64,000 nt of DNA from Hyalella azteca (taxonomy: Eukaryota > Arthropoda > Malacostraca > Amphipoda > Hyalellidae). Of this stretch, positions 4,029-35,200 are shown piece after piece. Below the pieces are notes generated by a model. It had not been told where the DNA came from and ran no database searches. It saw nothing but the letters and a program-made list of their open reading frames with translations. The stretch spans positions 310,001 to 374,000 of the forward strand of contig NW_025941636.1 of assembly GCF_000764305.2 (NCBI RefSeq). Reading direction: 5' to 3'. How positions within the stretch are numbered: position 1 is the stretch's first letter; each line of letters starts with the position of its first letter. The translations under genes and the position numbers were made by a program.

Positions 4029-4405
4029 ACTCACCCGTGTACACGTTGCCGATGAGCGTTGCAGTTGTGGACTGTGTGCACTCACCCGTGTACACGTTGC
4101 TGATGATCGCTGCAGTTGTGTACTGTGTGCACTCACCCGTGTACACGTTGCTGATATTCGCTGCAGTTGTGGACTGCGTGCACTCACCCGTGTACACGTT
4201 GCACATGATCGCTGCAGTTGTGGACTGTGTGCACTCACCCGTGTACACGTTGCACATGATCGCTGCAGTTCTGGACTACGTGCACTCACCCGTGTACACG
4301 TTGCACATGATCGCTGCAGTTGGGGACTGTGTGCACTCACCCGTGTACACGTTGCACATGATCGCTGCAGTTGTGGACTGTGTGCACTCACCCGTGTACA
4401 CGTTG
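4029..4405 (-). repeat. 51-bp minisatellite made of repeated GPCR exon 1 donor sites, 8 copies
   Basis: On the plus strand the block actcacccgtgtacacgttg recurs with exact 51-bp spacing, starting at 4386, 4335, 4284, 4233, 4182, 4131, 4080 and 4029. Read on the minus strand, each copy carries an exon end plus donor, TACACGG|GTGAGT. The copy at 4386 is the natural end of GPCR exon 1. The other seven lie in the intron. The frame stays open through two extra copies and is closed by TAG at 4273-4275 in the third. The most distal copy (4029) again encodes ATLIGNVYTG, using different third-codon bases from the exon. Confidence 0.95.
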
Positions 4406-4722
4406 CCGATGAGTGTAGCAGGCACGCAGAATATTATCACAAGCAGGTCTGCAAGCGCCAAATTGAACAGGAAGTAAAACACAGTCGTCTTCATGATGCG
4501 GGTGCGAGCGACCACCATCATGACCAGCACGTTACCCACCAAGCCCACCACAAACACTATTGAGTACGCTACTATGTACACCAACGTCGTGATGAATGAG
4601 TGTCTAAACTCATCGTATTCTATGCGGTCATCGTAGTTGTAATAACTATAATTGAGGCTATCGTTGTAATTGCTGTTGTTATAAGGGCTGTCCAAATGAT
4701 AGGATTCATTCATAAATGCCAT
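4392..4722 (-). CDS. First coding exon of a class A neuropeptide GPCR, trissin-receptor-like (partial gene)
   Basis: The exon encodes about 110 residues. First comes an extracellular N-terminus rich in Asn, Tyr and Asp with several N-glycosylation sequons. TM1 follows with the class A hallmark GNVLVMMVV, then a short basic loop (ARTRIMKT), then TM2 with NLALADLLVIIFCVP carrying the conserved LAxxD core. The exon ends at VPATLIGNVYTG, just past TM2, with donor G|GTGAGT at 4391 (phase 1). The CVPATLIGN sequence after TM2 reminds me of the insect trissin receptor group; orexin/QRFP-like receptors are the alternative. Met is at 4722, immediately after ATGCAG|G, which suggests a non-coding 5' exon upstream. 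TM3-TM7 are not in the window and should lie beyond its left edge. The donor is embedded in an eight-copy 51-bp array. Confidence 0.85.
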
Positions 4723-4924
4723 CCTGCATATGTTTGGTCTTGTAAGCTTTGAAAAAAAAAAATTACGGAAAATATGCCCGAAAATGTAATGTTACCATGA
4801 ACTAGTTCACTCCATTATCACGTTTTAATTCACGTTATATTCGTCAAACATAAACGATTAATTGTTTGCGTGACACTTTCGTTAGATTGTTTACGAATAA
4901 ATTTCTTTCTACCTCACTTCTTGC

Positions 4925-5065
4925 ACTCATAATAATTCTATAACCCTAGTGCGAGTTGCAGGTCGGCATCCTTGAAGTACGGCGAGTGACTCCCGCGGAG
5001 TAACAGACACCGACGCACGTCCCGTCCCAGGCTCAGTGCACGAATGACCGAACGAGGCGACTGGT
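4925..5065 (-). promoter_or_regulatory. CpG-rich patch, candidate 5'UTR/promoter of the GPCR gene
   Basis: This is a GC- and CpG-rich island of about 140 bp in AT-rich surroundings, 200-340 bp upstream of the GPCR ATG. The ATG sits just behind an acceptor-like site, so a non-coding first exon is expected in this direction. No core promoter element is certain. Confidence 0.35.
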
Positions 5066-5940: not shown

Positions 5941-5944
5941 GCAC

Positions 5945-5950
5945 TTTATT
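5945..5950 (-). terminator. AATAAA polyadenylation signal for the 433-residue gene
   Basis: A canonical AATAAA on the minus strand, about 200 nt past the stop codon at 6147. Confidence 0.5.
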
Positions 5951-6146
5951 GTATCTTTACAATGAATAATTTATGTGGCTAATATCTCATAAGTTTAGAT
6001 TAAGTTTAAGTGTAGATTTCGGGTTATTTTCGAACAATTTTCAAAATCTTTATCATCGGCTCACTTACGAAGAACATTATTCTTTTTCCACAAAAGTTTT
6101 ATTGTTTTGTGAAATAATTGCCCATTCTTAATTAACATTAATTTTG

Positions 6147-7448
6147 CTATTTGGCCAATATAGCGCAAATTTCGTCGGTGAGGTAGGCGAGGTCGAGCAG
6201 CCCTATGGCGGACTGTAGGTGCCATTTGGCGTGAGGGATAAGAGGACTGCACCACGAAGTTCCAGGGTACAGGTTAGTTCCGTTCTGAAAGTCAGGGTCG
6301 AAGTATTGGAACGAACTAAATTGATTCGCGATAAGATTTACTCGAGGCAGAAGCTCCCATCCTATATAATTAACGATCGGGTCGAGAAACAATTTACTTT
6401 TAGTCAAGACGCGTTCTTGCCACAGAAAGGCGTAAATTAGCTTCATGGTTGTGCTGAGTGTGTTGCCTAAAAGTTTGGCATGATCAGCAGGCGGAAGATG
6501 TATACTAGATGTCGCCCGACGAATTTCTGGAATATAATCGTCGAGGACGAAGCGACGAAGATCTTTCGGTAGCTTGAAGGCGTCCGCAAGCATCGGAACT
6601 AAGCTGTCCACAATAACGGCATCAAAACTCAACGTCAAAATCGTACAGTAAATACCAGAATAAATTAGCATGTAATCGGGAATGTCGAAACTTTCAGTGA
6701 TGTTATACCACTCACTCACAGGCCGCGTGAGGTACATCGTCTGGAAATCATCAATGATCTGGACAGCCGTTTTGGCCCGTGGAGTGGCACTCAGATCGTG
6801 GATGACTGAAGACTTGTAGTCAAGATTTGAAAGGCTTGCCTGATGGAAAGCGTATGCCAAAACAGCGAGAGTTTTACGGTCCTGTTGACGTCCAAGTCTG
6901 GTGTTGCTGCCATGCCAGAATGCGGAGCCCCAGGCCAGGGCTGAAAAACCTTTTCCCATTGCTTTCACATATTCATCTGACATAGAAAATCCTCTCCCCG
7001 AGAACTGGCGGAAGCAAATTTCTAACACGTCATGATAATATGCCAAATTTGAGGCATAGTCACACGGCTCATAAATGGTCATTCCGTGCATGGTTGATGC
7101 AGTAACGTTGTGCTCGTGATAAAAAGAAGGAAATTTACCCCACTCATCTGAAGGAGTGCCGTTGGAGTCCCAGTAATCGATGATTCCTTGCCATGCTTTG
7201 TCTTGGGCTCGAGGTAACTCGGGATCAAATTTCGCCATGCACGCCCTCAACTCTTCGAAAAAGTGAGCGTCGAAGCCCTTTTCTCCGCCCGTCATGAGGA
7301 GCTGCATGGCGTGTTGCATCGCCAGCATGGAGTCGTCGGACTGAACATTTTGTGATGCTTTTTCATGGTAAGGCAGAGCACTGGCAACCACTATTATGAA
7401 ACTCCACAACCAAGCTTGGCAGCCTTGCATGCTGATGTTATTGTCCAT
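6147..7448 (-). CDS. Secreted protein of 433 residues, single exon, unrecognised family
   Basis: An uninterrupted 1302-bp frame ends in TAG at 6147. Residues 7-25 (from MQGCQAWLWSFIIVVASA) form a signal peptide with likely cleavage before LPYHEK, so Met7 may be the true start. The mature part is mostly helical in appearance, with seven or so scattered Cys and NxS/T sequons (HNVTAS, YNITES, QNGTNL), which fits secretion. Distinctive segments are TMHGMTIYEPCDYASNL near residue 120, WGSAFWHGSNTRLGRQQDR near 175, and TLSFDAVIVDSLVPMLADA near 280. I cannot assign a family or activity. There is no transmembrane segment apart from the signal peptide. No intron is needed, unlike its neighbours, so it could be an old retrocopy that stays intact. 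Confidence 0.9.
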   Translation of the reverse strand: MDNNISMQGCQAWLWSFIIVVASALPYHEKASQNVQSDDSMLAMQHAMQLLMTGGEKGFDAHFFEELRACMAKFDPELPRAQDKAWQGIIDYWDSNGTPSDEWGKFPSFYHEHNVTASTMHGMTIYEPCDYASNLAYYHDVLEICFRQFSGRGFSMSDEYVKAMGKGFSALAWGSAFWHGSNTRLGRQQDRKTLAVLAYAFHQASLSNLDYKSSVIHDLSATPRAKTAVQIIDDFQTMYLTRPVSEWYNITESFDIPDYMLIYSGIYCTILTLSFDAVIVDSLVPMLADAFKLPKDLRRFVLDDYIPEIRRATSSIHLPPADHAKLLGNTLSTTMKLIYAFLWQERVLTKSKLFLDPIVNYIGWELLPRVNLIANQFSSFQYFDPDFQNGTNLYPGTSWCSPLIPHAKWHLQSAIGLLDLAYLTDEICAILAK

Positions 7449-8200: not shown

Positions 8201-8202
8201 GG

Positions 8203-8440
8203 AAGGTAATGTTGGTCATGGAGGCCCACTGTAACCTTAAACCCTGCTCTTAATGTTGGTCATGGAGGCCCACTGTAACCTTAAACCCTTCCCTTAATGT
8301 TGGTCATGGAGGCTCACTGTAACCTTAAACCCTAGGTCATGGAGGCCCACTGTAACCTTAAACCCTGCCCTTAATGTTGGTCATGGAGGCCCACTGTAAC
8401 ATTAAACCCTGCCCTTAATGTTGGTCATGGAGGCCCACTG
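8203..8440 (-). repeat. 44-45-bp minisatellite built from the last codons and stop of the LRR gene, about 6 copies
   Basis: Units carry ttggtcatggaggcccactg and aaaccctg in tandem. The copy at about 8404-8440 is the real 3' coding end of the LRR gene, covering the last 12 codons; the stop codon is at 8402-8404. The other copies continue into the 3' flank. The fourth copy is shortened. This is an exon-edge array at a stop codon rather than at a splice site. Confidence 0.9.
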
Positions 8441-8555
8441 GCCATCACACACAGAGTTGAAGGTCATGTCGTACACGAGGCGGCCGCCGAGGTCACCAGG
8501 GCCCCGACACTTCGGTTGACGGTCCCAGATTTTGTCTCCATGAGCGTGAAGCCAA
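8402..8555 (-). CDS. LRR gene exon 11: LRRCT end and stop
   Basis: Acceptor CTGCGCAG|T, phase 2. The exon completes the LRRCT (WLHAHGDKIWD, CRGPGDLGG, CDGQWASM) and ends at TAA 8402-8404. The last 12 codons are the founder unit of the adjacent 44-45-bp array. An extended LRRCT ending in GQWASM plus a short tail is consistent with a natural stop, not a truncation. Confidence 0.8.
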
Positions 8556-11500
8556 CTGCGCAGTTGCCGATAATTACAATTATTAATTATTAGGCTGAAC
8601 CCTTTCATCTCATTCCTCCTCAATTATTAGGATCCTACATCGAATAAGCTGAATCCCTCATTCCGTTCCTCCTCAATTTTTAGGTACATACCTCTATCAG
8701 ACTGATCTTTTCTAGCCCATTCCTCCTACACTGATATTCTTACCATCGATCCCAGCAGACTGCTGGTGAAATTGATCACTCGTATCCTCCGGGTTACGTC
8801 ATGTTAACTTGCCACTAAGTTGCCCAATTTTATTGTACCAGTACTGAGCTCCTATAAATTGATCTCAATTCTAATTTTACATTCTCTTAACTAACAAATT
8901 ATACTTAAATTCTGCCTTATTTCGCCAGCATTAGTTATAGTTTTTATTATAGTAAGGATCGTTCATAATTTCATTAAATTTACAAATTAATTAAAATAAG
9001 TATTCGAAGGGTTACAATTTCCAACTCTCTTCGAACATATGTGATTAAAAGAATAATGATACGAATTTACTTATTAAAGTTTTATTTTGCGATATAAAAT
9101 GAGAGTAATTATTATCTATGATAACCGCGAGCTCAAATCCTTCTCATCTATAAGTATTATCTCGTTAGTCTTAGCAGAGGCGTTCTTTGAAGAACAAGTC
9201 TTTGTTAGATCTAATTGGTGGCTCGTGCTCAATGTGAAAGCGTTCGATATATTTCTTAAGGAAATGAGGAAGTGCTTATGATGAGTGCACTGTAGGTCTG
9301 TAGCATTCATGCTTCCCTAAACTATTAATTAAATGTCAGGTCAAAAGTGAGTCTTTCAGTGGTGGGCATATATATTTGAAGAATGGGTATTAATTTGCTA
9401 GGTTATTATCATATATAACTGCTAAACTTTAGTACTAATTACTCTTAATTAATTAGCAAACGTTTCTCGCCGTGGGCATTTTTCATTAAATTTTCTAGAA
9501 GTTATATAGGTAATGAAGAGTTTTTATTCCTCAAGGTATAAAGTTTTTTTTAAAGAGGATTTTTTAGATAATTCCCATTCCCTATAAATAACTTTTTTAT
9601 TCTTTCTCAATCAATAAGTGATAACTTTCTTTGAAAAGAAGTGCATTAGGCTGTGATATTATTTGGGAACACATTCATAACTCAAGTGACAAGATTTGAG
9701 GCCAATATATTTATAAAAACACTCCACTAAAATTATATAAATTAGTCCATTAAGGCATATATGAGACTTTTAAAAACAGAAGAAGTAAAGCACAACACAT
9801 CGCACACTTGAATTAAAGTAAGGACCCAGTAATGCTGTAAATTTATTGGTATGAGAGAGCATTTTACAAGCAGCATGACATTCAATCAGTGAGTTAGAAG
9901 AAGTTAAAGCGACACGCTACTTACTTGGTGAGATAGAGGATGTTGCAGAGCAGCATGACATTCAGCGCTACTTACTTGGTGAGATAGAGGATGTTGCAGA
10001 GCAGCATGACATTCAGCGCTTCTTACTTGGTGAGATAGAGGATGTTGCAGAGCAGCATGACATTCAGCCCTTCTTACTTGGTGAGATAAAGGATGTTGCA
10101 GTCACAGTGCCAGGGATTACGAGATAACTTCACTTGCTCAACTTTTTCTAAGTCATCCAGCAGTCCTGGCGGTAGTCGCATGAACTTGTTGCTGTCAATC
10201 TGACTGGAGAAGTAACACATTTCAAAGTGTTACCTTTAAATACATTTCATCTATTTTTCTTCAAGAATATATCAACCATAAAAAATTATTATTCGAAAAT
10301 GTTACCCAGTTCAACGTACAGCCTGAGAAGATTAGGCGAGCGGACGAAGATGCGCCTGGGCAGGTCGCTGAGCAGGTTATTGTTTAGCAGGAGCCATGTT
10401 AAGTTGTTCATGCCGGAAAAAGCGGCAATTTCCACCTTGGCAATTTTATTAGAAAATAAATATAACTTCTCAAGCTTCGGGGTACCTGCGGGAGCAACAA
10501 GTAGAGAAATTAATGACACGCAATTGCAGTAATGATTTCTCTTTGAGCAACCTTTAATCACATTAATCAATGTTATGGGAAATGGTAATTTCAATACTTC
10601 ATCCCCGTATTTAAAAATAACTAAATTATGTAAAAAAAGTAGAAAATAATTGTTGACATTACAGACCAGCAAACGTGCGGTTGAGTATTTTCCCGATGTT
10701 GTTCTGGCCGAGATAAAGCTCCTTCAGGTTGCGCAGCCCTAAGAAGTCGCTTGCTTGCACAGACTCGAGGCTGTTGCCTGTGAGCTCTAACATCGCCAGG
10801 GACGCTTGGTGGCTCAGGAGACTGGGTGGTAGCACCTTCAACTGGAACGATTTGTACAATATTGCTTCGTGTTATTATTTCTTCTTAGATGCGTTAAAAT
10901 TATTTTGAAGCAGCAAGTTGTATACATCATTGGATGTAAAAAATTAAAATAACTTTTTTAACACATGTGATTGAAAATTTTAAAGCCTGACCTGATCATA
11001 CACCACATTTTAAAGAAAAAACTGTTTTTTTTTTTGTTATTTTACGATTAGATAATCTATTCATGAGTTTGTTCATTTGGATCCAAAACTCGTGCAGTTG
11101 AACTGTTTCATCAAAAATTCGCTTCTACATAGTGTATTGATTTTTCGATCAAATGGAACTTTGTAATTCAATTTCGTAGCGCAATGGTAAAATTTTGATG
11201 AGCACACGGCTACATCAAAGCCGGAGTGAACGAGATATTCAGTCCCTAAATCAGACTCATTTCAGCCATAGCATTGACGAATAAGTCCTATTCTGATTAC
11301 AAAATATTAGGAATTTCAACTAACATTCAAATTCAAGGGAAATGGGCAGTCTTCTAAATCGAAACAAATTAATATGATTTGCAGGTTATTTGATATGATA
11401 TTAAATTTTAATATAATTATACAGAATATATGATGTGAAAACCGTAGAACAACTGTGCTCTGATTGCTTCAATAAAGTCATGTCTAATAATTCGTTTTAA

Positions 11501-14500
11501 AATAATCACTCTATTATTGTTCTTCAGTGGCAGACTGGCAGAAGCAGTTAAGTTGTCACGGATATTGGACGCATTCACTGTGTAATATTTTCCTAACAAA
11601 CATCCTAGCAACTTTAGAGGCAGTTTGGCTTCTTTCGCATAGTTAGTCCGTATAGATCAAAACTCTAGAATGGGAGCTAAGCTCTCCCACCGTTCAACGC
11701 TAACGGCCTCCGCTTTTCTCAAACTTTTATTGTAGATGTTAAATTAGAGAGCTAAGTTAGGTCCGGATTTTAATCTAACTATACTTTTAAATGAAATCTT
11801 TATTGCCAAAGTTTTTTCTTGCCAAGATTTGCACTCAAGAATGCTATGCTCCTCAGAACTCTCAAGGAAAAAATTGAGTTAGCTGAAGGCAATATCCTAA
11901 CTGTTACACTTGATTCTCATTGCATTCTTGAATTTTTATTCTCTGAGGGTGATCAAAAAACTATGATTTAGTTTTCATTAATTTAATGTTTGATAAATTT
12001 CGGGCATAAATTTTCCATCCTCACCTGCTCTGTGCCACAAATGATTTGGGTGACGTTTGAAGTAGTTTTAATGTGCACATTCCACGTGAAACTAACATCT
12101 CGCCCAATACTTGACTTCACTTTCTCTGAAGAATTTGTGCCAGTTCGTTGCCTGACCTCACAGCAGCAACTCCTAAGGTGCTGTTTTGGGCCAGATTCAT
12201 TTTGAAACTCTCCTGTATACGCTTCAAGTTAGATGGTATGGACTAACCTTTTCAAGAATCTTTGGCCCCTGTTCACCTTTGAAACTATGGATTAAAGCAA
12301 CCAATGGAAGCTTAGCTTGAGCTCTGTCGGGACTTTGGACGCATGCGTGGGCACGTGCTGAAGTGGATGTCGTCTGCGCTACGACTTACCTCGATGGTAC
12401 ACCTGACGTTTTGGATGCGACCAGTACCTTGACCCCGGCATCTTACCTCTGCGCGGGCGTGGATCAGCTCCAAGAACCGGCACCTCACCAGCGATTCACC
12501 GAAGGATTTTTTAGCACTTCAGGTACGTCACCCTATCTTCGTAGGCACGGAGCAAGCGGTGATGAGGTGTTAAATCCTGTTCCTTTTCACTTGAAACCCG
12601 AATAAATAATAAAGCCCGTAAATTATCCATACTCTAATATTTATTGGTAATTTTAAGACTTCATTCATGATTATCCAATAATAAAGATTGCTCTTACTCG
12701 GAACGTGTGGCAGCAAGTTGCACCAGCTCGACCTACTTTTGCTACGATTGCAAACTTTGTCATTTAAGACCTTTCATTGCATCGAGCGTTTTTTCGCCTA
12801 CTTTGAGCTGAACTTTGTGCCTTGCCTGATCACCGTTTCCTTTTCTTCAGAATTTTCGGGTTGGGCAGACGCAGGAGCGAGTTGCGGCTCCTTTGCCTCT
12901 TCACGCTTATTGAAGAGGAGCCGCTACCAAAATTAGGCAGCACCAAACTAACTATCTCGTGGAATTGATGGCTATTTATACCATCTTGAAATTTTTTAAA
13001 TAAAGAAAAGATTTCTTTAGCCTCCAGTCCATTCTTGTTTTGCTTGCCTATATCTTCATTTATCAGCTCGTTCCTCAAAGTATTGTCCAGAGGGTCGCTA
13101 AATTATGGTTAATGAAGTAGAATGATAAACATCTTTTAGAGCTGAGATCCTGTGAATTGTCCTAATTAGAATCTTCTTGTAAACCAATTCAATTAACGGC
13201 AGATTTTCTGATAAAAGATACTATCATATCCAAAAAATTGAAGTTTCTTTCAGAGAAACACTCTGCGTCCTCGAAAATTATTTGTGGAAGGTTTCGTTCT
13301 CGCCAAATTAATTTCAGTGAGATTTTATTCAAGTCTTCCTCTACGGAGCCTTTAAGTTGTCAGGACTAGAGCGATATTTCTGTCTTGCCCTACGTGGGGT
13401 TCTGGGGAAGAGACTCCTGTGGAGGAGTTAAACTACGAGAACTGCTAGGCCAAGCACCTGAGTATTTTTTAAATATATTTATTATTTTAAAGATAAATGT
13501 AAGACTTTAAACGTTATTTGAGTGCAGATATAAAAGTAATATGAATTCATGGACGACCATTTAATAATTGATGCTAGATTTTACCTTAAGAACAGAATTC
13601 TCAAATCATAAAGATCATGTGTCCCGATCACCGGCAAGTTAACCTGCCAGGATGTGTTAGTTGCTCGCCTTGTTATGGTCGAGCCTGAGCATTTCCAGGC
13701 TCGTCAGAGGCGAGAACACATCAGGTGCCAGGTGCTCGATGTTGTTGTGGTGCAGGTGCAGCTGCCGCAGCTGACTGAGCGAGCTGAACACGGTCCTGGG
13801 CAGGTCCTGCAGATGAAATTAATTCTGCATGAAAATTAAATATTTTGTTGCAAAAAATAGTAATATATTCCACGGATATGTTTAGATGAGGCCACACCTG
13901 CGTCACGTGGATGCAACAATCGGTTTCAGAATATTTTTTAAACTACATTTCTTATGTCATTTTTCAACCTCTGAATAAGGAAAATAATTAGACAGTTCTA
14001 GTTGCAGAAGAAAAACAAAGCAACGAAGCAATGAATCACTGCTACAACAATGCTCAGATCATTCACTCTCAAGTGAATGACTCACTCATTCACATTGAAT
14101 TAACAAATTCATTAGTGAATAGAATTTCCCATGTACGATCTAGCCTACTTCGCTCATCAATAATCAAATATTTGTAAATACGTCAGCATCAATAATTCTT
14201 ATTACTTAGCATATTCCAATAGAACTTTTAGGAAGTGAAGACCTCACCTGGATTTTGTTCTCGGACAAGTCGAGTTCCTCAAGCTTTCGCAGCTGCGAGA
14301 AGGTGGCGGCCTGCAGCGTCGTGAGCGAGTTGTCGGAGAGGCTGAGCGTGTGTAGGTGAGGCAGGCCCATGAACGTGCTGCCTGGCAGGCTCTCCAGGGC
14401 GTTCACTGAAATGTCGCTGCTCCCGCAACACAAACTATAATATGAGTCTTTGCATAGAAATGACACTGAATGATTATTACTTTACTAAAAATATGAATTG

Positions 14501-17500
14501 CGTCGCTGCTCCCGCAACGCAATATATAGACTATAAAATCAATTTGAGTCTTTGCATAGAAATGATACTGAATGATTATTTTACTAAAAATATGAATTGC
14601 GTCGCTGCCGCCGCAACATAAAAAATAGAGTGTAATACGCTTATTAATGCAAGTATAAGCAGGATATACAATTATGTAGATGCTAAAATTACAGTACATC
14701 ATGAGCTTTCTTCGGGAATTAGTGGTGAGCACATTGTACAAAAATATGTCCATTCAATTTTGGGTAAACAACCCATAAAATTTGTCCGTCTTTTCACAAA
14801 TGCAAGAAATTATCGATCTTACTAAACTAATTTAAAAAAATGGATTTAATAAATAGCAAGAAATTCAAGCATATTTCTGCCTGAATGGAGATGAAGCAGA
14901 ACCAAGCCAAATTATGCACGCAGAAAATCAATACATTTTTACGTCTTCGCTGTGAGGGTAGAAAATGTAAATTCTTTATGCATCCGTCCTCATTATGCGA
15001 GATTAATTACTTAGTAACTACTTACGCAGTCAACGATAGTTAATTAATAGGCAAACTTGATGATTACGTTTGCTGGAAGTGATTTATTTTTAATGCGATT
15101 GTGGTCAGGTACTCAGAAGCTTCTTTCGGTAAAGAAGTAAAATAATGAATCAGTAAATAACTTATGTTGAGCGGTATTTCATTCTCAATTATCGTGTTAT
15201 AGTACAATAAATTAGATGACCATAAAATAAGTGTGATAAAGAACTAGATATGGTGTAAAAAATCGAGAGTTGAAGATGAACGTCGTACTAATATGCACGA
15301 GGCTTTTTCATGGGCTGCCGTTACCTGTACCATTCGCACCAGAACAAAACATTCATGGTGAAGGCTTTTGAAGTGAATGACGCTCTACTCTGCCCGTGAT
15401 GCTCATGCGATTAATCTAATTTTTAAAGCCCTTTGATGCTCTGGAAAATGTTTCATTACTTATTACGGGCGTTGAGAGTCCGTATCTTGTATTCAAGCGA
15501 CTCGTTTTCAGCAGAATAAGGAACAGATTCAGATATTTATGATAAAAGCGGCTGGGTCGTCCACTTGAAAGACATAGACGCATTTTCACCTTAATTATTT
15601 AATTAAATTCATATCGCCTAAATTTACAGAAATTACGGAAATAAATTGAAAGCTTGACCTAGAATTTGCCGGTAAATTTATTAGCTAATACAGTTTAATT
15701 TTGTTTGAACGTTTTTAACTTATTTTTAAAAGAATTCAAATGAAAATCACTATCAAATGCTAATCAATTTCAAATGCTTAATCACTATCACTATCCTATT
15801 TTATCAATGGTTCGTTTTATAGCTAACACGTTGGTATCAATCAAAGTTATGACGTTAAATTTTTGTTCCTCTTACATCTTCGTCAAACTCACGCTACTCA
15901 CAGTTTTTCTAGGAAGAATGCTAGCTCAAAACTTCTCGCATATTTCAGTGAAGGGCCTCTACCGAATTTGCCAGTTTCGAGCACTTTTAATGTAACCTTA
16001 CAGCCTAACCAAAAAAAGGGGCTATTGCTCGGGAAATCTTACATGGTCTGCAGGGATCTTGAATCCATGAAGAGGTCTGGGGGCAAGTGACGTAAGCTGT
16101 TTTTTCGTAGCTTCCTGAACACATGAAAGGAAGCAGTGAATACCAAACTGTCATTTGCATCATCACGGACAAATTTAAATTGGAAAATAAATTGCCTTTT
16201 CAATCAGAATCGTAAGTTTGATCGGGCTTCATGGGCTTGAAAACTTGCGAAGTATTATATCGGTTGCTGTGCGAGTTGCCGTACATTGCGACTCACGTCT
16301 CTGATCTTCTATAAGAGGCAACATGCGTGACATCACAAGTCTATAAAGTTGATTAATTCAGCAAGTTTTACATGCAAAAAATTGCAATCGCTCTTAGACT
16401 TTAGACAAGAGACAAAATCTAGGTGAACTTAACATAAATTTAGAGATAATTTGTAACCAGTTTTATTTAATGCAATATTCACTTACCCTTCGCAATCAAT
16501 ACGTTATTGGCTTTAAATTAATATCTGTGTTTTCATGATACATCTCAGATAGGGTCGGGAATAATGCTTGCATGTCGTAACGAACACAAAGAAAGATACG
16601 ATTAAAGGTTGTTCAAATCACATCCTTTATTGATGAACGAACCACATTTAAAACTATTGGTGAAATAATATTTGTGAGAGTGCGAGTTATTGACCTTGTC
16701 TATAACTCACACGTGCTGTAGATTCTCCAGATCAAAGAAAATGCTAGGAGGCAGCTGCTGCAGGTCATTTTCGCTCAGGTCTCTGGAAAATTCCCATCAT
16801 ATGCATATAAGTTGTTTCGAAAAAGCATAATTCAGTTATGATGATTGAAAATCTTAATTTATATGTAATTATCAGTTACGAATGAAGAAAATTCTGATTT
16901 ACTGAAGTATCACATTAGATTTATTTACATATGCCGTTTTTCATAAGTATCACAAAAAGAGTAATACAGCGTTTTGAACAAACTTGCTCGAGCATGAGCC
17001 GTAAATTCGAAGAGCCAGAAACGCAAGATCCTGCACTCTTCGAAGTATCACACCTGCATGATAAATCTCACTGAACCCTGGCCACGCTATCGCGGAAACT
17101 TTGCAGCATTTTTCAGGCCGAACTAAAGGAGCCCTAAGCCTAAAATATAACTGGGATCGCTGGTCTCTACTCGAGTCAGCGATCCTTTTGATCTCAGGCG
17201 TGAATTACTTCATTTTTCAGGAAGAAAAACAACTCCTGATAATATTTATAGTTGTAGAGTAGCGCAGCATATTCGAACAGTGATTGCTAAATATATAATT
17301 CTTATTAGTCGATGAAATTATGATGGGCAATGGGCAATTGTCAATTGTAATTGTTGTTGTAATTCATTGATCAATAATTGTAGTAATGGGCTATCTGGCA
17401 TAAGAATTTCTCATGTAAGAGAGAGAGAGAGATAAGTTAATTCATGCTTAATGAATTTTTCATGACGTTTTAAGAAAATTTAAGTTGAGTTTAAGTGGTC

Positions 17501-20500
17501 GGGTTAACTAAGCAAGAGCACAATACTCAATCAATTACTAATGCTTGGTATGATTTGCTTAAAATAGATTAATGAAAGTTTTTAGCAATGTTTTGCTGGT
17601 CAAAGCATAAAAATCTAGCATTTATGAATTTTTCATGAGAGAAACTATTGACGATCCCAGCTTTTATGAATCTGAGAAAAAAGAAAACAATCTCACATCT
17701 CCTCTAGGTGTGTCAATCGGTTGAAAGAATTCTTGTGAAGATAACGTAGCTTGTTCATGCTCAGGTCTCTGTAAGGCAAACGACCCGGAAATGTTACGAA
17801 CATTAAATACATTAGAAAGTAGCATTATTTATAGTATATTAGTGTGTCTATCATCTCATTCCGTTTTGGAACATACTATACTTTAACTTATTTTATGTTG
17901 CCGTAGAATTTAATAGTGGACAGCAAATTAAAATAACTACTTAGGTACGCACACATTATAGGTAGAAAGCACAAATTCCTTTTTACAACTAAAATAACTG
18001 TTGATATTCTGGTATAATATTTTGTTATAACATTACGAGTGTTTTAAATAAACACATAAACTATAAATGCTTTATTTCTTGCCAATAGATTTTTTTCCTC
18101 CAGAATATCGAAAATGATTTATAAAATGATTCACATGGATATGGTAACAGTGATGTACACAAAGCCTCACAGCGTCTGGACGTCGACCGGCAGATGTTGT
18201 TTTCTCGGCACACGGTCCAAGCCCTCCAGCCTCCAGCAGCTCACGGCTCGCGTGTCTTCAGTGCAAGAACACGGGCCCTCCGCGCACCGCGACCACCGCG
18301 TCACTCCGGTGCCCACGGGCCACACTTGTGACAAGTGGTCGGGTTAAACTCAACCTCACTTGGCATAAGTGATTAATAAATGTCAACCGAACTTAGCATA
18401 AGTGGTTGGGATAATCTCAACCTCACTTAATTAGCATAAGTGGTGAGGTTAAGCTCAACCTCACTTAGCATAAGTGGTGAGGTTAATCTCAACCTCACTT
18501 AGCATAAGTGGTTGGGTTAATCTCAACCACAGTTGTGACGGGTGCTGGGTAGTCACAACTAATCACTCGTGACTATGCTGGGTAGTCACATGTGTTTGGT
18601 TAATCTCATTCCGGCTTTTGACGTTTTGACGTGTGCTGGACCAATCTCAGCCACGCTTGTGACGTATGCTGGGCCAAATGCAGCACGGATAAGACGTATT
18701 TTTGGCCAATTTCAGTTACATTTTTGATGTGTGTTGGGTCAACCTCAACCTCGCCGGAACGTGCGTTACTCAATCCAAGTTCGCCTGTCTGGGTTTTCCT
18801 AGTCAGGAAAACTTCTTTGCGACCGTCACAACATCAACCTAGAGACACACATTCAACCCATGTTGTGCTAGGAGTGTGCGAAACACATTTAGGATGTTAC
18901 CATTATCCCTTTGAAATCGATCACATATTTTATGAATATTACATTATCTTATTTTACAGAATAATTTCCATACCAATAGCAAACGTTTACGTAGAATCTT
19001 AATGACCTCACGCTCTTATGATAAGAAGTACGCTTTACAAAAGCGTAATGTTAATTCCGGCATAAAACCAATTTTTGAGGAGAAAGTTCTAATGGTATTA
19101 GAACCCATGCATTATAGAATGTTATAGAACCCATGCATTATTTCCTGTATAACTTATTTACAGAAAATTGCTCAATATATAGTTATTATGATTTTTCATG
19201 CTTAGTTAACAGCATTGCATGTTCATTCATAGCTAACTAGTAACTCTTCGATTCACAATTCCCCTGTTTTCTTTGAGGATGTGGACTTAGATGCTTACGG
19301 GGTTGTAGCGGAAATAGATTAAATTACTTGCTTTATATATATATTTATTTATAATTTGTAAGTGTAATGTATTAGTTTTAGGATTTTGGTTCATTATTTT
19401 CAGTCTTCAATCACCTTTCAATCACCGTGACCTCCAGTAGTAGGGCGATTAGTAAGTATATATAGTAATATAGTAAGTAGAAAGCTCTCTGATATTTGTG
19501 ATTGTTGAATTTAATCGTGAAGAGTGTTGTATTATATTTACAATTTTCGTGTTTTAATTTAATTTGTTTATTATTTTATTCATTATAGGCCGCAAGTCAT
19601 GTATTTCTCGATTTATGGTCTCTGGACTTGAAACTTCAGAACAAATAGAAAAGTGCACTATTAGCTGTTGAAATGCCCGGTTTGTCTTGTGCAAGTGTTA
19701 GGGTTGCAGGTTGTTAGGATATTAGGTTTGTTGTTTGTATTTCTATTCATTCAACGTTAATTATATACATTTAATGACTTTTTATACATTGAAAAATCCT
19801 TAGTTTATAGAAGTATTGCATGGGTAAGGAACGATCACGTGCTGTGTTGGGGAGAGCCAGTTCGATCATTGATTGGAAATTCCTATATTGCGATAATGCT
19901 CGCGACACTTAAATAGTACAAGGGAATTGAGACGAGTGAGACAACACTAGAACTGAATTTAGCCTGATCATATATGACTTAATTATCTGTACCATTTGTA
20001 AAATGCTTGATGAATATAGCATTTGCCGGTGCTGGAATATAATCTGTCGATGTGATATTTCGTGAATCCGAGTGGAGATAACCGTAAAGTCTGTGTTGTT
20101 GAAACATATGATGACTTGGATCATTTTACTTAGACCACTGGCGCTGCAATTAGAATCATTCGTTTTTGGAGATCGAATTTCCTGAATTTTAAGCGTTATT
20201 GAAAATGCATTGGTTAACATGTTTGCACTCACTCAAAATCACTCATCAATAACGGTTCCTCTTCAGTAATGAATAGTCGTCAGAAGTTAACTCAATTATT
20301 GGCCGAGTCACTTCGATTATAATTTTAAACGCGAATGAGAAACCGCGCATGTCCATTTTTCATTGAAAGATCTAATGAGTAACGTCTGAAACATGAATGA
20401 AACCATAGAAGCTAGAATGGTTTACATACAATTGAATTTAAAAATTAATGAAATTGATGATAAATTCGTTATCTTCATTATCAGAGTAGAGGGGAGTAAA

Positions 20501-20855
20501 ATCTTTACCAGGAATAGTTGAAAAATATTTTACATCAGAAGGCAAAAATTTTCGATAAAACTCTCAACTCACCAGGCTGGAAGAGACTCTCGACTTCGCG
20601 CGCCAAGTCGTCTACTTTAGTGATGAGACCTTCCATTCTTTCCATATTCTGAAAGACTTCTTCGAGCGCCTCAGGTTTGATCATCTTGAGCATCTTGTGC
20701 ATAGTTTGCTCGGTGTATTTCTTTGCAATGTCGACCGCATGGCAGCCCGACAAGCCGCATAATTCAGCCGACGAAGAAGCATTGGACTTTGGCAGAGCCT
20801 CGAACAGAACAACCGTCAGAAGAAAAAAAACCAATCCGGGTAAAATGAAGTGCAT
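8402..20855 (-). CDS. Secreted leucine-rich-repeat protein, 11 coding exons, 526 residues (LRRNT - 13 LRR - LRRCT)
   Basis: Exons in coding order: 20855-20573, 18324-18171, 17768-17697, 16782-16711, 16114-16043, 14416-14248, 13806-13669, 10841-10667, 10485-10316, 10199-10078, 8555-8402. Junction phases are 1,2,2,2,2,0,0,1,0,2, and all are compatible. Three consecutive exons are exactly 72 nt, each one 24-residue LRR with phase-2 borders, the usual LRR exon pattern. The protein has a signal peptide, a helical segment with two Cys, an LRRNT (CAEGPCSC...VSC), 13 repeats of type LxxLxLxxNxL, and an LRRCT with NPWHCDC and later CRGPGDLGG and CDGQWASM. No transmembrane segment follows, so it is probably extracellular and mediates protein-protein contact. 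It resembles invertebrate proteins annotated as carboxypeptidase N subunit 2-like or LRRC15-like. The exact orthologue is uncertain. Some splice sites are non-canonical or weak (see findings). Confidence 0.85.
9915..10100 (-). repeat. 51-bp minisatellite carrying the LRR exon 10 donor, 4 copies
   Basis: On the plus strand ttacttggtgagata recurs at 9921, 9972, 10023 and 10074, exactly 51 bp apart. On the minus strand each copy reads GCAACATCCTCTATCTCACCAA|GTAAG or nearly so; the copy at 10074 is the real exon end and has CTT where the copies have CTC. Intron-side copies are decoy donors. Extension past the real donor meets TAA at once. Confidence 0.95.
10078..10199 (-). CDS. LRR gene exon 10: last LRR and start of LRRCT
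   Basis: Acceptor TCCAGTCAG|ATTGAC (phase 0), donor CTCACCAA|GTAAG (phase 2). It encodes IDSNKFMRLPPGLL, then SRNPWHCDCNILYLT with the LRRCT cysteines. The donor edge is repeated downstream in the 51-bp array. Confidence 0.85.
10316..10485 (-). CDS. LRR gene exon 9: LRR 11-12
   Basis: Acceptor GCTCCCGCAG|GTACC (phase 1). The donor that restores the LRR pattern is CTGTAC|GTTGAA (phase 0), which is weak. A better-looking GGTAACA eight bases further on would put a stop in frame after joining. It encodes KLEKLYLFSNKI and NNLTWLLLNNNLLSDLP. Confidence 0.75.
10667..10841 (-). CDS. LRR gene exon 8: LRR 8-10
   Basis: Acceptor CGTTCCAG|TTGAAG (phase 0). The donor consistent with frame is GCTG|GTCTGT (phase 1), weak. 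It encodes SLAMLELTGNSLESV and NLKELYLGQNNIGKI. The join to exon 9 gives FAGTPKLEKL, matching LRR spacing. Confidence 0.8.
12025..12228 (-). CDS. Candidate coding exon or decayed fragment in LRR intron 7
   Basis: Open for 68 codons between a TAA and a good donor (GAGCAG|GTGAGG at 12024). It includes SIGRDVSFTWNVHIKTTSN and VTQIICGTEQ, which reads like the start of an extracellular beta-sandwich domain. No clear acceptor and no start Met are visible, and a second frame on the same strand is also open. It could be an exon of a nested gene, a relic, or chance. Confidence 0.3.
12300..13078 (-). pseudogene. Coding-like but broken sequence in LRR intron 7
   Basis: The stretch is GC-richer than the surrounding intron, and minus-strand frames carry protein-like pieces (82 codons at 12830-13078; FLELIHARAE near 12460; DQARHKVQLKVGEK near 12815) interrupted by frameshifts and stops. 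The plus strand is also open at 12363-12605. I cannot identify a parent. It may be a decayed gene or transposon remnant. Confidence 0.25.
13669..13806 (-). CDS. LRR gene exon 7: LRR 6-7, ends in a GC donor
   Basis: Acceptor TTTCATCTGCAG|GACCTG, phase 0. Encodes DLPRTVFSSLSQLRQLHLHH, then SLEMLRLDHNK. The only junction that restores the LRR consensus is AAG|GCGAGC, a GC-AG intron. Reading on gives a stop after three codons. Confidence 0.8.
14248..14416 (-). CDS. LRR gene exon 6: LRR 4-5
   Basis: Acceptor GCGGGAGCAG|C (phase 2), donor ATCCAG|GTGAGG (phase 0). Encodes DISVNALESLPGSTFMGL and LSLSDNSLTTL, then LEELDLSENKIQ. The acceptor edge is repeated upstream. Confidence 0.85.
14413..14620 (-). 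repeat. Three copies of the LRR exon 6 acceptor edge, 89-99-bp spacing
   Basis: The block gtcgctgctcccgcaac (exon edge plus acceptor) occurs at 14413 and 14502, and a diverged form at 14601. The intervening sequence is shared and contains gtctttgcatagaaatga and actaaaaatatgaattgc. Each copy presents TTGCGGGAGCAG|CGAC on the minus strand, so the intron has duplicated 3' splice-site sequence. Confidence 0.8.
16043..16114 (-). CDS. LRR gene exon 5 (72 nt, LRR 3)
   Basis: Acceptor TGTTCAG|G and donor ACCAT|GTAAGA, phase 2 both ends. Encodes KLRKNSLRHLPPDLFMDSRS. Exactly one LRR. Confidence 0.85.
16711..16782 (-). CDS. LRR gene exon 4 (72 nt, LRR 2)
   Basis: Acceptor TTTTCCAG|A and donor CACGT|GTGAGT, phase 2 both ends. 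Encodes DLSENDLQQLPPSIFFDLEN. Confidence 0.85.
17697..17768 (-). CDS. LRR gene exon 3 (72 nt, LRR 1)
   Basis: Acceptor TGCCTTACAG|A and donor GAGAT|GTGAGA, phase 2 both ends. Encodes DLSMNKLRYLHKNSFNRLTH. Confidence 0.85.
18171..18324 (-). CDS. LRR gene exon 2: LRRNT
   Basis: Encodes WSRCAEGPCSCTED, then a further Cys (AVSCW) and HLPVDVQTL, the LRRNT pattern before the first LRR. Donor ACGCT|GTGAGG (phase 2). The best acceptor is TGTCACAAG|TG (phase 1), which joins exon 1 in frame but has a poor pyrimidine tract; it borders a minisatellite. The start is therefore less certain than the end. Confidence 0.75.
18335..18790 (-). repeat. Minisatellite next to the LRRNT acceptor (35-bp units, then diverged 38-bp units)
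   Basis: From 18335 to 18535, five or so copies of about 35 bp share aagtggt...ggttaatctcaacctcactt, partly self-complementary. From 18525 to 18790 more diverged units share cttgtgacg.gtgctgggt. The exon edge itself (ccacacttgtgac) resembles these units (ccacgcttgtgacg, ccacagttgtgacg), so the array may have grown from the acceptor edge. Confidence 0.75.
19361..19990 (+). repeat. Diverged dispersed repeat, copy 1 (partner at 36985-37540)
   Basis: Shares ordered blocks with 36985-37540 in the same orientation: ttcaatcacctt, gggtt/tgttagg, tttctatt.attc, taattatata, gaaaatcctt, and cacgtgctgtgt versus tacgtgctatgt. It is probably an old interspersed element of unknown class; no coding region is recognised. 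Confidence 0.5.
20573..20855 (-). CDS. LRR gene exon 1: signal peptide and helical segment
   Basis: ATG at 20855. MHFILPGLVFFLLTVVLFEA is a signal peptide. Then come ELCGLSGCHAVD with two Cys, and about 45 residues of amphipathic helix with heptad-like hydrophobics (QNMERMEGLITKVDDLARE). Donor CAGCCTG|GTGAGT, phase 1, compatible with exon 2. An upstream GTG could extend the frame by five codons, but ATG is the natural start. Assignment to the LRR gene rests on phase, strand and order. It could instead be a separate small secreted protein. Confidence 0.7.
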
Positions 20856-21310: not shown

Positions 21311-21311
21311 A

Positions 21312-27573: not shown

Positions 27574-29029
27574 CTGAAAAAAAGGTTTTAATTTATCTGT
27601 AAATTTACAAGCTGCCAAAAAATAGAATTCACTCGAATGAAATAAAAACCTGATATCATGTGCTTGATAATAAATTGTTCTTTATCATTCAAGTAAGACT
27701 CGCACATCAATAAGCGCAAAAATTAGTACGTAGATTTTACTAAAATAGTTAATCTTCAACTATATAATGAAGACATGACAATCAGCTGTAATTCCCAGCT
27801 TTTTAGTTGAAAACAATAAAATATTAAAAGGTATTCCTTGCTATTAGTTAGTAGTCCACACGCAAAACTAAACCAAGTCTGATGGTAGAGGTTAGTGGTG
27901 AATGAGCGCTCATTTGCACCCTCAATGCAATATAGTGAGTGCATCAATGAACGACATGCTGTGGTGACCGTGAACTTCCCAGCTGCTGCGTCTGGAAATG
28001 TGCCGCTGTGGGCCACGCTCGAGGTGGGGTTAGGTTTTATTCCTAAGGTCATAGAACAATTAAGAGATTTATTGAAGCACGACTGGCCTGGTTCAAAAAT
28101 TTAATGTGCGTTGTTTGCAATATGTGAAGTTATTATAAGAGGCTGTGAAATTTTAGTTAACCATACACAGGATTATTTCTGAACTAACCAAGAAAAAAAT
28201 TTTTGGTACATCTGTTTCTTGATTTAATCATGATTTTTATCGTGATGTATTAAGAAAACATGTGAGACGAAAAATTAAATTCTACAGTAAATAATAATAT
28301 GACTCAAATCTTTTTCACTTTCTGCCTACACATGCCCTCAAATTGGTGGTTATAAGTGATTGAAAACTAAACTATTGTATTTTACCAGCTATTTTTAGCG
28401 AGCATCCAAGTAATCTTAAAACAATGATACGATGCAAAACTCCATGCGGAGGATAAGACATCTATATTAAATTGATATTCAAAAACAACGCTTTACGACC
28501 GTTGTTTGAAGCTACTTAACTTGTCAATAACTACCGTATATGTATGTTTGCAATTTCTACAGCTGACATTCGAGCTATTGATATTGAGCCATGGTTGTGC
28601 TCTGCCTATCTACGCGCAACATTTTATAAATTTTATTGGGGCCCATATCCTTTACTAAAAATGAAGTATTAACTCTATGCGGCTTTGTTGTTGTTGTACA
28701 ATAGTTATCAACTGATGTGCTCAAAAGTTTTACAGGCTACGGAAGAAGACCAGGTGCTACGTTGAAGTAGGACATTTCACCCAGCCACCGCTGTAAGCAA
28801 GCACGAATCGAAAGCACCAAATAATAAAAATTTACAAAATAACACAAATATTTTAAAAATACTGCTGACGCAAATTAACTTTTCTGTGTTCTTAATCTAT
28901 TCGTATGTTATAGTTCAATTCTTTCAGATTACATGAACATTTAAAATTAAAAACAAGCTTTAAGGTTTACAAGAAGAAACAAGGATTCACACCCACTTTT
29001 CAACTTATTTTTTGTGAATATAAGTTCAC

Positions 29030-29035: not shown

Positions 29036-29205
29036 TGACTGCTTTTGATGTGCTTGTCCAGCAATTAAGGGTAGGAAGGAGCATGGAAAGGGAAGGCAGA
29101 ATACTAAAGCATCAAACAAGGAAGACTGCGGCCCAAAACCGAGCACAATAAATATAGGTAAATTAAAGCAATCAACTGAACGCTCAATATATACTCAGTT
29201 GGCCG

Positions 29206-29263
29206 TTATTTTTTCTTATGAGGTGCCATCGAGGTCGGTCTAGGCGTCGAGCGTCTGAACAAG
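29206..29263 (-). CDS. DUSP22/15-like gene, short terminal exon
   Basis: Acceptor TTTGCTCCAG|C, phase 2. Encodes LFRRSTPRPTSMAPHKKK and TAA at 29206-29208. It has a polybasic tail. It resembles the first residues of the long terminal exon. Confidence 0.75.
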
Positions 29264-32200
29264 CTGGAGCAAATGATAAAAAGTTAAAACTATTACAACA
29301 AATGTGGATAAAAAATAAACGCGAACTAAAAAATTATAAGACTTTTCGTCATTTCAGTGAAAATATTAAAACTTCGTTAACTTAAGGAAACGGAACATGA
29401 GTAACCAATTACTCGTGATTAAAAATGGAAGAAGAGATGACGTTGTAGACGTTGTAGGAAAATGTTACATATGATAGGGCTACGTATACTAACATTTTTA
29501 AAATTGTTCAGCGACTCCAAAATACTCGATAAGTTATCGCTTTTCCTGATTCAATTACGGATGTAACTGAAATAATCAATTGACGACTTCCGTAAATGAG
29601 ACACATGCAATATGAGCAGCACAAGGTCAATTTTTGACCACTACCCTATCAATAACTTGAGCGCGTACGCTGTTTTAATTTAGGGGCCTTGATAATTTAA
29701 TGGCCACAATTTGAAAAAAAACTAAACTATGCTTGAGTTCCAACTATTGTGATTACTTTTGCTCAAATTTAAATAAATTATATTTTGAAAATAATTTAAA
29801 ATTTCATTCAACATCACAATGGTAATAGCTCCCGATGCGTTTAGCTGCTTATTGACCAAGTTACAGTTCCTATTGTCTTTGCTGGTTGCCCATTGCAGGT
29901 TGCTGATAACATGCAGCATTTATAATAAATTCACAACAGGATGAAGCAAACAAACCTCCTGCGCTGGTTGCAAAGTCCTCTAGGACAAACCGACCCCACG
30001 GGACACTCGCCGTCACAAGTTTGTCCGAGGCTCAGGGACAGGTTGTAGGATGCTAGGAACTCCTGCGCTACTCTCTCATCCTCCTCCATCATGCTTACGT
30101 ACGCAGGATACTTTTCCTTCAGACGACGACGCTCCTGAAAAAAATATCGTGTACATTTAAAACGTCACAGACGCAGTTGTGCTGTCAACAGTTGACATGG
30201 GGAATGGGGAAGGGGTTAACGTACACCAAATTATTATAGCCTATTATTGGTATAGCGTTCACCACGTTGCGTTCTTTTCAAAAGGTTTTTTTTTGTCTAA
30301 TGTTTGTGAATGAAATTACGGGCTAATTTGAAAGACGCTTATCTTTATGATAACCTATACCAATTTTCAGTGATATTAGTATGTGTGATGACTTGAATTT
30401 TCTGATATTGGAAAAATATTTGTTGACTACAAATAATTAAAGTTTAAAAATTGCTTATTCCGAGCACATTGTGTAACACGAATAAAGTATTTTGTCCAAT
30501 ATGTCCACAAATATTAAATAAAAAATGAGGCTAAAACATCTGAAGTATGAGTTAATTCTGGGAATTTTGAGTGCCGGAAAATCTGTAAAGCATATTTTAA
30601 AAATTAATGCTAAATTTCACCTCTATGTCAATCGCTATTAGCCTCCTAAAATCGACGAGAAAATCAAAGTTTTAGTTTTAAATATTCTACTTGATATAAA
30701 ATTTTATAAGGTTTTTATCTTTTACTTATGTAGCATCTAAAAAGTTTTTGATTTAAAAAGATTTTTGATACTTGATATAAATTTTATAAGCTTTTTATCT
30801 TTTACTAATGTAACACCTAAAAAGTTTTTGATATTTTACATGATATATAGGTTTTTACATCAAACTACAGTAACTTTTTTGTGTTTTTTTCAAACAGACG
30901 TCGGTAAGACGCTCTGCGTCGAACTCGCTGAGTTGCTTCAAGAAGCCGACGTTAGGGTTGGCGACGTTACGAGCTCCGCGCACAGCGTTGAGAGCGTCAC
31001 GCCAGTTGAGGCTCGTCACGCTCATCACGTAGATAACGGCCACCGTCACCGAGCGTGACATGCCCGCAAGGCTGGGGTAAAATACTTCAATTTAATTCAA
31101 TGATCACCAATAACTATGCCAGTAAGGCATCGCACTGGACTAGGAAGAGAACACGTGGATTAATTTCGGATAATAACTGTCGTTGCATTTAGTCCATTGA
31201 TATGGCTTGTTAACTTTCATTGTCAATTGGCATGTTAACCAAGCCTAGTTTTGCATCGATAATTTTGTAATTTTAGAATCTCCAATCATGTCATTCCAAA
31301 CGCCGTTAATAATTAATACAGCTAATCAAAGATTGGCAAGTTAAAAATCCCATTTGCACAAAAAATAAAATTACCATCTTAATCTCGTTGCACAGTACAA
31401 AGCAAAAAATTTGACGTTCTTTTAATTAAATTTTTAAGTACCAATTTTAAAATATAAATTTTAATTTTTGATCAAATCTTGTCCTCCCAGCTTTGCAATG
31501 CCATGCAATTCACTCACTATGGGTGCATTCTCAGGTCCATGTTATATCCCAACATTATAAGTACCGGGTATTTATATAACCAGGCAGGATACGAAGCCAT
31601 TTAAAGAGTGCGTAGGAAGAGCAATACAAATAAATGGGTCAAATTGTCCAAATAATGACACATTTTCTTACACACAGCGCAGGCAGAGTGTGTGTATCCT
31701 CACACGCGAGCGGAGTGTACGCCAGTGCCTCGTAATTTGAACAAGTCTCTCATTTCTACGGGAGTGGGCAAAAAAATCAAATGTCTTATTTCAGATCTCC
31801 ATCCTTCAAATAGCTTGAACAACTCCCTTTTTCAGCAAAATTTTCGGTTTACCATTCCGGTTTTATAGAACACACCAAGTTATTTTTAGACTAATGTTCA
31901 TTCAAACGATCTTTTCTTGTTGAATGATATCAAAAGTAGCATCTAAGATAACATGAATCAGAGTTCGACACATTTAATGTGTGCGTTTTTCGCTCATATT
32001 ATCGTGAAGAGTAAAAATAATTTAAATTGAGGTTTTTCACATGTCAATAAAATGCTGAAATCAAATTGGACGAATGCAGGCAGTCGATTTCACATGGGCT
32101 TCCGCTCTCCAGCGACGCTTAAATTACGCTGACTCGGCATCTCCGACACCAGCAGATCACTCACTGAAACGTGAGATCCCCGTGGTGCTTACGACCTGAG

Positions 32201-35200
32201 GAAATCCGGCGTGATGTTCTCTCGGGAGGATAGTTGAGTGCTCGGCCTGCCATTCCTCCTGACCTTCACTGAATTTATTGCGGAAACGAAGTTTGTCCTC
32301 TAATGAACCGTGAGAATTTTTAGCCTCTATAAATTTTCCTTTGATGTGTGATGACGCTGATTCTATATTGAGCAAGGTTTTAAATGGCCCGTAAAGAAGT
32401 GAACCTGTCGATTTAGCCTCAATAACTTGCCTTTGAACAGTGTCAATGTCGAATATGAAATTTTTAATGATATGAAAGAGTCTCAGAGAAAAAAAAATGA
32501 CTTGAACGTTCGACGTTGCAAGGAAGGCTTTTGTTAAACGTCTTATTCGGTGACCTAGTAAAAAGATGAATTTTTATTTCTTTACAAAACTTCTTCGGAA
32601 AGAAGCATCCACTTACATGTTCATTGCCAATTAAACTTCTTCATACTAATTGCTGCTATTTAAACTTAAAAGTCTAGTTGTATTCTCGTTTATCCCATAA
32701 CATTCGAATATAAAGTTAAGAATACGTGCTATAAATAAAGTTAGTATATCCACCAATGGATGAGGACGGAGCCGCCCTTGAGCCGAGCGGTGTGGATGAA
32801 GTCGTTGCAGACGGGGAAGAACTGCATCAGGCTCTGGCCCGGCGAGTCAGACGCAAGGATGCACAGATGTTCTTTGTCCTGGAACATAATTTGGCCCAGG
32901 TTACTTTTTCCAGCAAATCGATCAATTGCTTCAAATCTGTTCTGGCAAATCATGTAAACGTGACAACGAAAGAGGACGCCAAATACTTATTCGTGTAAGA
33001 GATCTATTGAATCCAATTCTTCGTTACCGCTGCTGTTTCTATCACGGATCATTGCTGAGATCTAACCAAAAATTTCCATTTGAATCGTGAAATACTGTAA
33101 GTGATGAGGTTCAAAATTGAACCATTAAAATGCTAAACAAATCAGTCGTCGGGCAAGCAGCTGGCATTGCGGTGTTGAATGGTCCCTTAGATCAGCCACA
33201 TTAAAATTGCTTGTCAAGGTACGTCGCAGTCATAATAATTGAGTTCCAAATGTGAGATTGACTATATATATTTTGACGCACGGTAGCTTCCAGGCATTGT
33301 TGTTCTACTTAATCACGATACGCAGTGTAAAAAGACAAGAGCCACTTACTTTTTTGCAGGGCAGCATCCAGGCATTGCCGTACTTCATAATCAAGATTAA
33401 CTGTGCAACAAGATAAGAGACTGCATACTCACGTTGTTGCACGGCAGCTTCCTGGCGTTGTCATGCTTCTTGGTCAAAATTAACAGTGCAACAAGACAAG
33501 AGACTGCATACTCACGTTGTTGCACGGCAGCTTCCTGGCGTTGTCATGCTTCTTGGTTAAAATTAACCGTGCAACAAGACAAGAGACTGCATACTCACGT
33601 TGTTGCACGGCAGCTTCCTGGCATTGTCGTGTATGGCGAGGATGTGCGTGATGCCGTGTTCCTTCAGCTGCCCCGTGTCCTTGCTGTCTCTGAAGTTGCC
33701 TACGTACAACCCAGGCAGCACCTGCACGCACCTCACGTTTTAATAATGTTCTACAAACATTTTAATATTGACTTATAATTCAGTCACACCAGTTGACATG
33801 AGAAGGCTGTTTAAACAGTACACGTAAGAGCATCACAGGCACAGCCAAATAAAAAATTCCAATATTGTTTATCCAACTTTGAATATTCAGAGCATTGAAT
33901 ATTTTCCGTCAAAATTACGGCACCGATTTATTCCGCCAATCCTGAGTCTTGCCACGGAAGGGGATATTTTTCATTCTCCTTAATTAATTATCTGATGAAT
34001 TACACACACAATCAAAGCTACAGATGAATTTCCTGTCCTGTTTTCCAGCTGAGTAAACAAGATGGCTGGATTATGTTAAAAAATACAATTATGAGGCTAA
34101 TAATTCGAAAAGTATTTTTTTAATATCTACTATTTCAACACTTGCATCAACGTTTGTTGTGTTTCAGAGAATATTCGTCCGGATTAAAGGAAAATCCATA
34201 TTAGTCACTAGTCTTTTTGTGTCCCCCTGGCAGGCAAAGCTGCCATTATTTTTCAGGAATGTATTCAGTCTGCACAAAAGCTATTGTCAAAGTTAATAAC
34301 AAAGAACACAAAAGTTTCGACTTGGTTGCACTAGCGCCACCTGATGCCACTGGCCGGCGGCCGTAGCTGCGATCGCGACGCTAACGATCTTTACGCATAG
34401 AGCGGAGAGCTAACGTGACGGCTTTTACACATTGAAATCAAATAATAAATAAGCACTAGATTACTGACAAACCTTCTCATTAATTCCTGTATGTCAGAAC
34501 TGAAAAAAATTTTAGAGCTCTTTAAAAGTTGAAAAGAGACTCTCGGTGGCATGCAAACAATAATAATGGTGACATATCGATATAAATAGTAGTAATAACG
34601 GTGGTTGCATTGATGTCATCAGACTTGTCGTTGATTCTGAACATCGAAGATTTTTCACAGCTTGCTGCGGGTCTCGAACATGCAATTCACTGCTACAATT
34701 TTGCGGTCCATCAGCGTATGACCACAACGCCGCTTTTAAACAGAACTGTCGCAGGTAGGTGGGATAGAACCCTCAACTCACCGCTGCTATTTTGGAAATC
34801 CATTCATCTGATTTATAGCCGGTAATTGTAAGAAGTCTGATTTCGTCAGGCTGGAACAATAATTCCACACTTAACATCTTATTGTTTAGCCTGATTAGCT
34901 ACGAAAAAGTACTAACTTTTTTGATATTTTTAATATTCCCATGCACGAAATTCCCATCGATGTATGGGAACTAAATTAAATGCTTCACATTGCCTGAACT
35001 GAAGTGATTTTTGGCTACGTGTGACTTAATAAAACCCTTCTCGTTAATTCCCCAATTTTAGTCCCATTCTGACCAATTGTCAGAATTGGACTACAATAAT
35101 GTAATCCTCTCGTCGCAAAAAGTGTACTTTTGTCATTACAGCATTAAAAAAATTCTAGTACTTGAATTTTATAATATAGAGTGGCTTTATTGACAAAATA

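Follow-up and report, generated by a model that had tools for sequence, protein, structure and literature searches.

Mirage-like tandem arrays at exon edges in three genes of the amphipod Hyalella azteca

Lancelet mirages and a comparable amphipod locus

In lancelets, minisatellite-like tandem duplications that run over exon–intron boundaries, at donors as well as acceptors, have been described under the name of "mirages" (PMC3087553, PMC3902484). The reports give as examples the genes for Adh3, globin and troponin C together with an imperfect case in PGBD5, unit lengths from 10 to about 160 bp, and an AG or GT preserved in many of the copies (PMC3087553, PMC3902484); in PGBD5, repeats of 60 and 108 bp are located on splice sites (PMC3902484). 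They further describe boundary copies that escape homogenisation, as seen in globin, and a regular splicing of the affected genes despite the arrays (PMC3087553, PMC3902484). Local duplications within or across exon borders that supply splice signals are also reported in Drosophila (PMC2891723) and in human segmental duplications (PMC2812944), with new introns or splice forms as their reported outcome, and further related work deals with intron gain (PMC4974935).

The window analysed here is a stretch of 64,000 nucleotides from the amphipod Hyalella azteca (RefSeq assembly GCF_000764305.2, contig NW_025941636.1, positions 310,001 to 374,000). Within 30 kb of it, six tandem arrays are found in three genes, all on the (-) strand, and each of them repeats an exon edge: a donor in three cases, an acceptor in two and a stop codon in one. 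Judging from their layout, they look like the same kind of structure as the lancelet mirages, this time in an arthropod and with a stop-codon variant. Exon–intron boundaries are spanned by the three donor arrays and by two weaker acceptor arrays; both 5′ and 3′ boundaries are thus affected, although the acceptors were missed by the stricter of our alignment tests. The AG/GT signal is kept in many but not all copies (16 of the 17 donor copies here), and the inner copies of the receptor array are homogenised while the boundary copy is excluded, as in lancelet globin. On the other hand, the host is an amphipod, six arrays are packed into 30 kb, splicing is predicted here from the reading frames of one sequence, and the stop-codon array copies the last codons and the stop without spanning any intron boundary. 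As for the Drosophila and human duplications, the likeness lies in local duplication at an exon border, and the difference in the new introns or splice forms reported for those cases. A limited literature search returned no mirages in crustaceans, lancelets being the sole animals seen with that name. Six mirages within 30 kb of amphipod DNA suggest that such structures recur in distant animals. They would offer a natural test of how one splice site is chosen among several that are nearly identical, and of the way in which new introns may arise by tandem duplication.

Genes and arrays

The original prediction of at least four, perhaps six, arrays over three genes is borne out, as all six carry copies of an edge, the acceptor arrays being the weaker ones. 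Reading frame and homology identify the gene-side copy as the functional edge in these arrays, in agreement with the idea that they grow from exon edges. They were also expected to begin exactly at the borders, which is inaccurate: the four clear arrays start 14–38 bp inside the exon. The anticipated copy numbers of the receptor (eight), LRR exon 10 (four) and stop-codon (six) arrays proved right, and the three to five copies proposed for the phosphatase resolve into four with a donor and a decayed one. Donor copies were scored against the 9-base U1 consensus, and the 16 that keep a donor show seven to eight matches out of nine. The copy farthest from the gene is the most diverged one in the receptor, phosphatase and stop-codon arrays; those of LRR exon 10 differ too little to judge the divergence of the boundary copy.

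The first gene is represented by an exon 1 that starts from its ATG (4392..4722, (-)) and encodes part of a class A receptor of the neuropeptide-FF/SIFamide type, as assigned with Pfam (7tm_1) and PDB. Its best PDB match is Neuropeptide FF receptor 1, and the SIFamide-type label is one that we presume. No exon following exon 1 was found within the 64-kb window. The donor array of this exon (4029..4406, (-)) consists of eight head-to-tail units of 51 bp, each made of the exon end and GTGAGT, and both TRF and unit comparison recover CGG·GTGAGT in 8/8 units (the dot marks the exon end). Of these copies, the one with the highest coordinates holds the real donor, the exon ending at 4392. The inner copies are 82–98% alike and the last one is 75–82% identical to the others (44 columns). 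Frame prediction indicates that the next two copies keep the reading frame open and that a TAG is met beyond both, so the first two extra donors may be used. Among database matches related to exon 1, similarity stops near the same residue in 14 of 19 (by eye), and 14 of 19 proteins match the donor motif under a loose definition. None of the 14 ORFs repeats this motif past the donor, where only 5/14 extend at least 17 residues beyond, the length needed to reveal a second 51-bp copy. Because no related ORF repeats the motif after the donor, the receptor array looks young, on what is thin evidence. Adjoining the array, the stretch 3900-4028 (-) encodes a TM2-like peptide, MILADLVVTIACTP, and is perhaps a decayed exon. 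As a larger copy of exon 1 it shows no DNA similarity (p 0.30); its resemblance to the TM2 of exon 1 consists of a 14-residue match in one frame, a level reached by 0/300 shuffles.

The LRR gene (8402..20855, (-)) carries four of the arrays. Its gene model comprises 11 coding exons and is open over 526 aa, with exons 1-4 at 20855-20573, 18324-18171, 17768-17697 and 16782-16711, exons 5-7 at 16114-16043, 14416-14248 and 13806-13669, and exons 8-11 at 10841-10667, 10485-10320, 10203-10078 and 8555-8402, all on the (-) strand. Exon 7 ends with an apparent GC donor, AAG·GCGAGC, at 13669 (-). The closest relatives of the model are decapod proteins (61% identity to a Panulirus protein), in which the joins at exons 2, 6 and 10 are continuous by alignment. 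At the donor of exon 10, an array of four 51-bp units (9915..10101, (-)) presents CAA·GTAAG(A/T) in 4/4 units; the real donor GT is at 10077, and the use of any later donor is predicted from the frame to lead to an immediate TAA. The stop-codon array (8207..8440, (-)) was delineated by TRF and unit comparison as six units of about 44 bp, each corresponding to the last 12 codons, TAA and the five next bases, with one unit shortened to 33 bp and a degenerate last unit. The real stop belongs to the gene-side copy, the coding sequence ending at 8402. Since 5/5 aligned decapod proteins end almost alike, with a nearly identical C-terminus QWASMT.I.GRV, these terminal codons are taken to be genuine.

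By sequence comparison, the two acceptor arrays of this gene appear weaker than the donor and stop-codon arrays. That of exon 6 (14410..14629, (-)) contains two upstream copies and the real acceptor with a period of about 99 bp, and that of exon 2 (18325..18528, (-)) is made of diverged 34-bp units that end at the real acceptor. The original proposal of arrays at these positions fares differently with each method. TRF stops short of the edges, by 23 bp at exon 6 (exon start 14416) and by 9 bp at exon 2 (exon start 18324). Direct comparison does find copies across them, as the two upstream copies at exon 6 span the edge with 5/25 and 6/25 mismatches, and the best upstream copy at exon 2 spans it with 8 mismatches out of 30, each a level equalled by 0/300 random stretches. 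An alternative acceptor of exon 6 at 14405 was rejected, as the 11-base shift breaks the frame that is kept by 14416.

The third gene encodes a DUSP22/15-like phosphatase (30855..33721, (-)), recognised with Pfam and solved structures, with exons at 33721-33599, 32878-32754 and 31071-30855; its 5′ exon was not found in the window. The join between exons 2 and 3 is continuous in human DUSP22 over a small gap. The donor array of exon 2 (33278..33628, (-)) has 83-bp units and the real donor GT at 33598. A donor is present in 4/5 units (GTGAGT in three, GTAAGT in one), the remaining unit being decayed, and using a downstream donor is predicted from the frame to give a TAA after 11 codons.

Placement of arrays relative to exon edges

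The frequency of arrays at exon edges was evaluated with 32 merged arrays, 15 of which measure at least 90 bp, and 33 edges (13 donors, 13 acceptors, 4 stops and 3 starts). Exons at 36-64 kb may be missed, which leaves the list of edges incomplete in that part; a Pfam search of ten single ORFs from there yielded no family above the cut-off and one below. As originally estimated, recognised coding exons sum to about a tenth of the window. The tests bear on one window chosen after the fact, with tolerance and cut-offs set by the analysts. In addition, nulls that place whole arrays count the full expanded length of an array, and the seed null places one unit length.

Under strict overlap, 4/32 arrays (three at donors, one at a stop, none at acceptors) coincide with an edge against 1.9 expected (p 0.10, circular shift), and the long arrays (at least 90 bp) give 4/15 against 1.4 (p 0.04, circular shift); across the different sets of edges, arrays and regions, p ranges from 0.02 to 0.11. 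With a tolerance of 25 bp, the counts rise to 6/32 against 2.5 (p 0.025) for all arrays and 6/15 against 1.7 (p 0.001) for long ones, and in positions 1-34000 an edge is no more than 25 bp away from 6/7 long arrays (p about 0.001). Acceptors alone are not enriched, either strictly (0/13, p 1.0) or with tolerance (2/13, p 0.18-0.34). Two further tests rely on alignment. A TRF-independent one that requires 8 bases to either side of an edge detects a local copy at 4/33 edges (p 0.09) and at no acceptor, and an ungapped version for which 6 bases are enough on one side detects 6/33 at a cut-off of 8 mismatches (p 0.04), with p 0.03-0.14 for cut-offs from 6 to 10 mismatches. When seeds of one unit length are placed instead, 0.27-0.55 hits are expected against the four observed (p 0.00005-0.0016, whether or not GC is matched). 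Taken together, the edge enrichment is suggestive. The claim that about a third of the arrays are located at borders is too high for all arrays and fair for the long ones, and the statement that chance could not produce this placement is too strong in view of the strict tests, even if the seed null points in its direction.

Since random unit-length seeds underpredict edge arrays, an edge bias may exist. Expansion could be preferentially seeded at edges, for instance where exon ends are GC-rich, where replication stalls or through repair linked to transcription, and would then appear as an excess over the whole genome of this lineage. The GC-matched seed null (p 0.0007-0.0016) and the clustering of long arrays near edges in the first 34 kb speak for such seeding, against which stand the modest p values of strict placement and of both alignment tests, the unenriched acceptors and the choice of a single window after the fact. 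The bias is thus suggested, as originally proposed, and one window gives no proof of it. We regard preferential seeding as possible, although we lean against it; it is compatible with the explanation that we favour.

Origin of the arrays and alternatives

That explanation, which we consider probable, is tandem duplication across exon edges, tolerated through the gene-side copy in a mirage-like manner. A short segment straddling a donor, an acceptor or a stop codon would serve as unit, and an array would grow from it by ordinary tandem duplication at the site, with slippage or unequal exchange acting afterwards. The outermost copy on the gene side would keep defining the exon, and the others would leave with the spliced intron or remain in the 3′ UTR. 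An array of this kind would be tolerated on account of that working copy, with splicing at the gene-side site and little effect on fitness. While the arrays themselves are observed, we infer the mutational route, their near-neutrality and the gene-side splicing. These surplus copies are probably by-products that do no harm, with removal by splicing or retention in an untranslated tail as their predicted fate.

Whether such arrays are more than by-products can be considered for the receptor. Its six inner units (4086-4370, (-)) each contain CTGCAG, then 24 nt, then the donor, in-frame and free of stops, and so have the makings of putative in-frame 24-nt microexons. A ready use of them is disfavoured by an intron space of just 27 nt between neighbouring units and by an acceptor that lacks a clear pyrimidine tract (both by eye). 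In a broader scenario, edge arrays would be a genome-wide habit of this lineage, acquired independently of lancelets, and a place where new exons and introns originate, the receptor proto-microexons being able to lengthen the first extracellular loop by eight residues. We find this scenario unlikely.

Another proposal was that donor arrays are under selection, the extra U1 sites helping to define the exon or shielding the intron from premature polyadenylation. The good U1 matches of 16 of the 17 copies are in line with it, and so is the receptor array, in which 0/9 donor columns vary over eight copies against 16/35 elsewhere (p 0.01) and an invariant run of 21 of the 44 columns is reached in 0/20,000 column shuffles, bearing in mind that these shuffles ignore the kinship among copies and that the first and last copies bring their own flanks. 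However, when the six inner copies are taken separately, 10/51 columns vary, the donor by itself is no longer significant (p 0.12), and what stands out is an invariant block of 25 nt that covers both exon and intron sequence (p 0.009). The same test on donor columns gives no signal in LRR exon 10 (p 0.90) or in the phosphatase (p 0.39), and acceptor and stop-codon arrays have no donor role. One array hints at constraint and the others do not; the proposed benefit of U1-binding copies thus finds no consistent support, we make no claim of selection on donors, and we hold it to be very unlikely. Finally, an assembly artefact is hardly credible, given that copies differ by substitutions and indels, that units vary among arrays and that edge and non-edge arrays coexist.

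Besides the three genes described above, two other ORFs were noticed. One, at 25059-27587 (-), is 842 aa long, rich in serine and proline, and assigned to no Pfam family. The second is an intronless ORF of 433 aa at 6148-7448 (-), located between the receptor and the LRR gene and likewise assigned to no Pfam family. Its relatives, in a list of 94, include amphipods, a copepod and many metagenome or read-set contigs, with the alga Aureococcus near the end, and its identity to a protein from another amphipod, Trinorchestia longiramus, is 69%.
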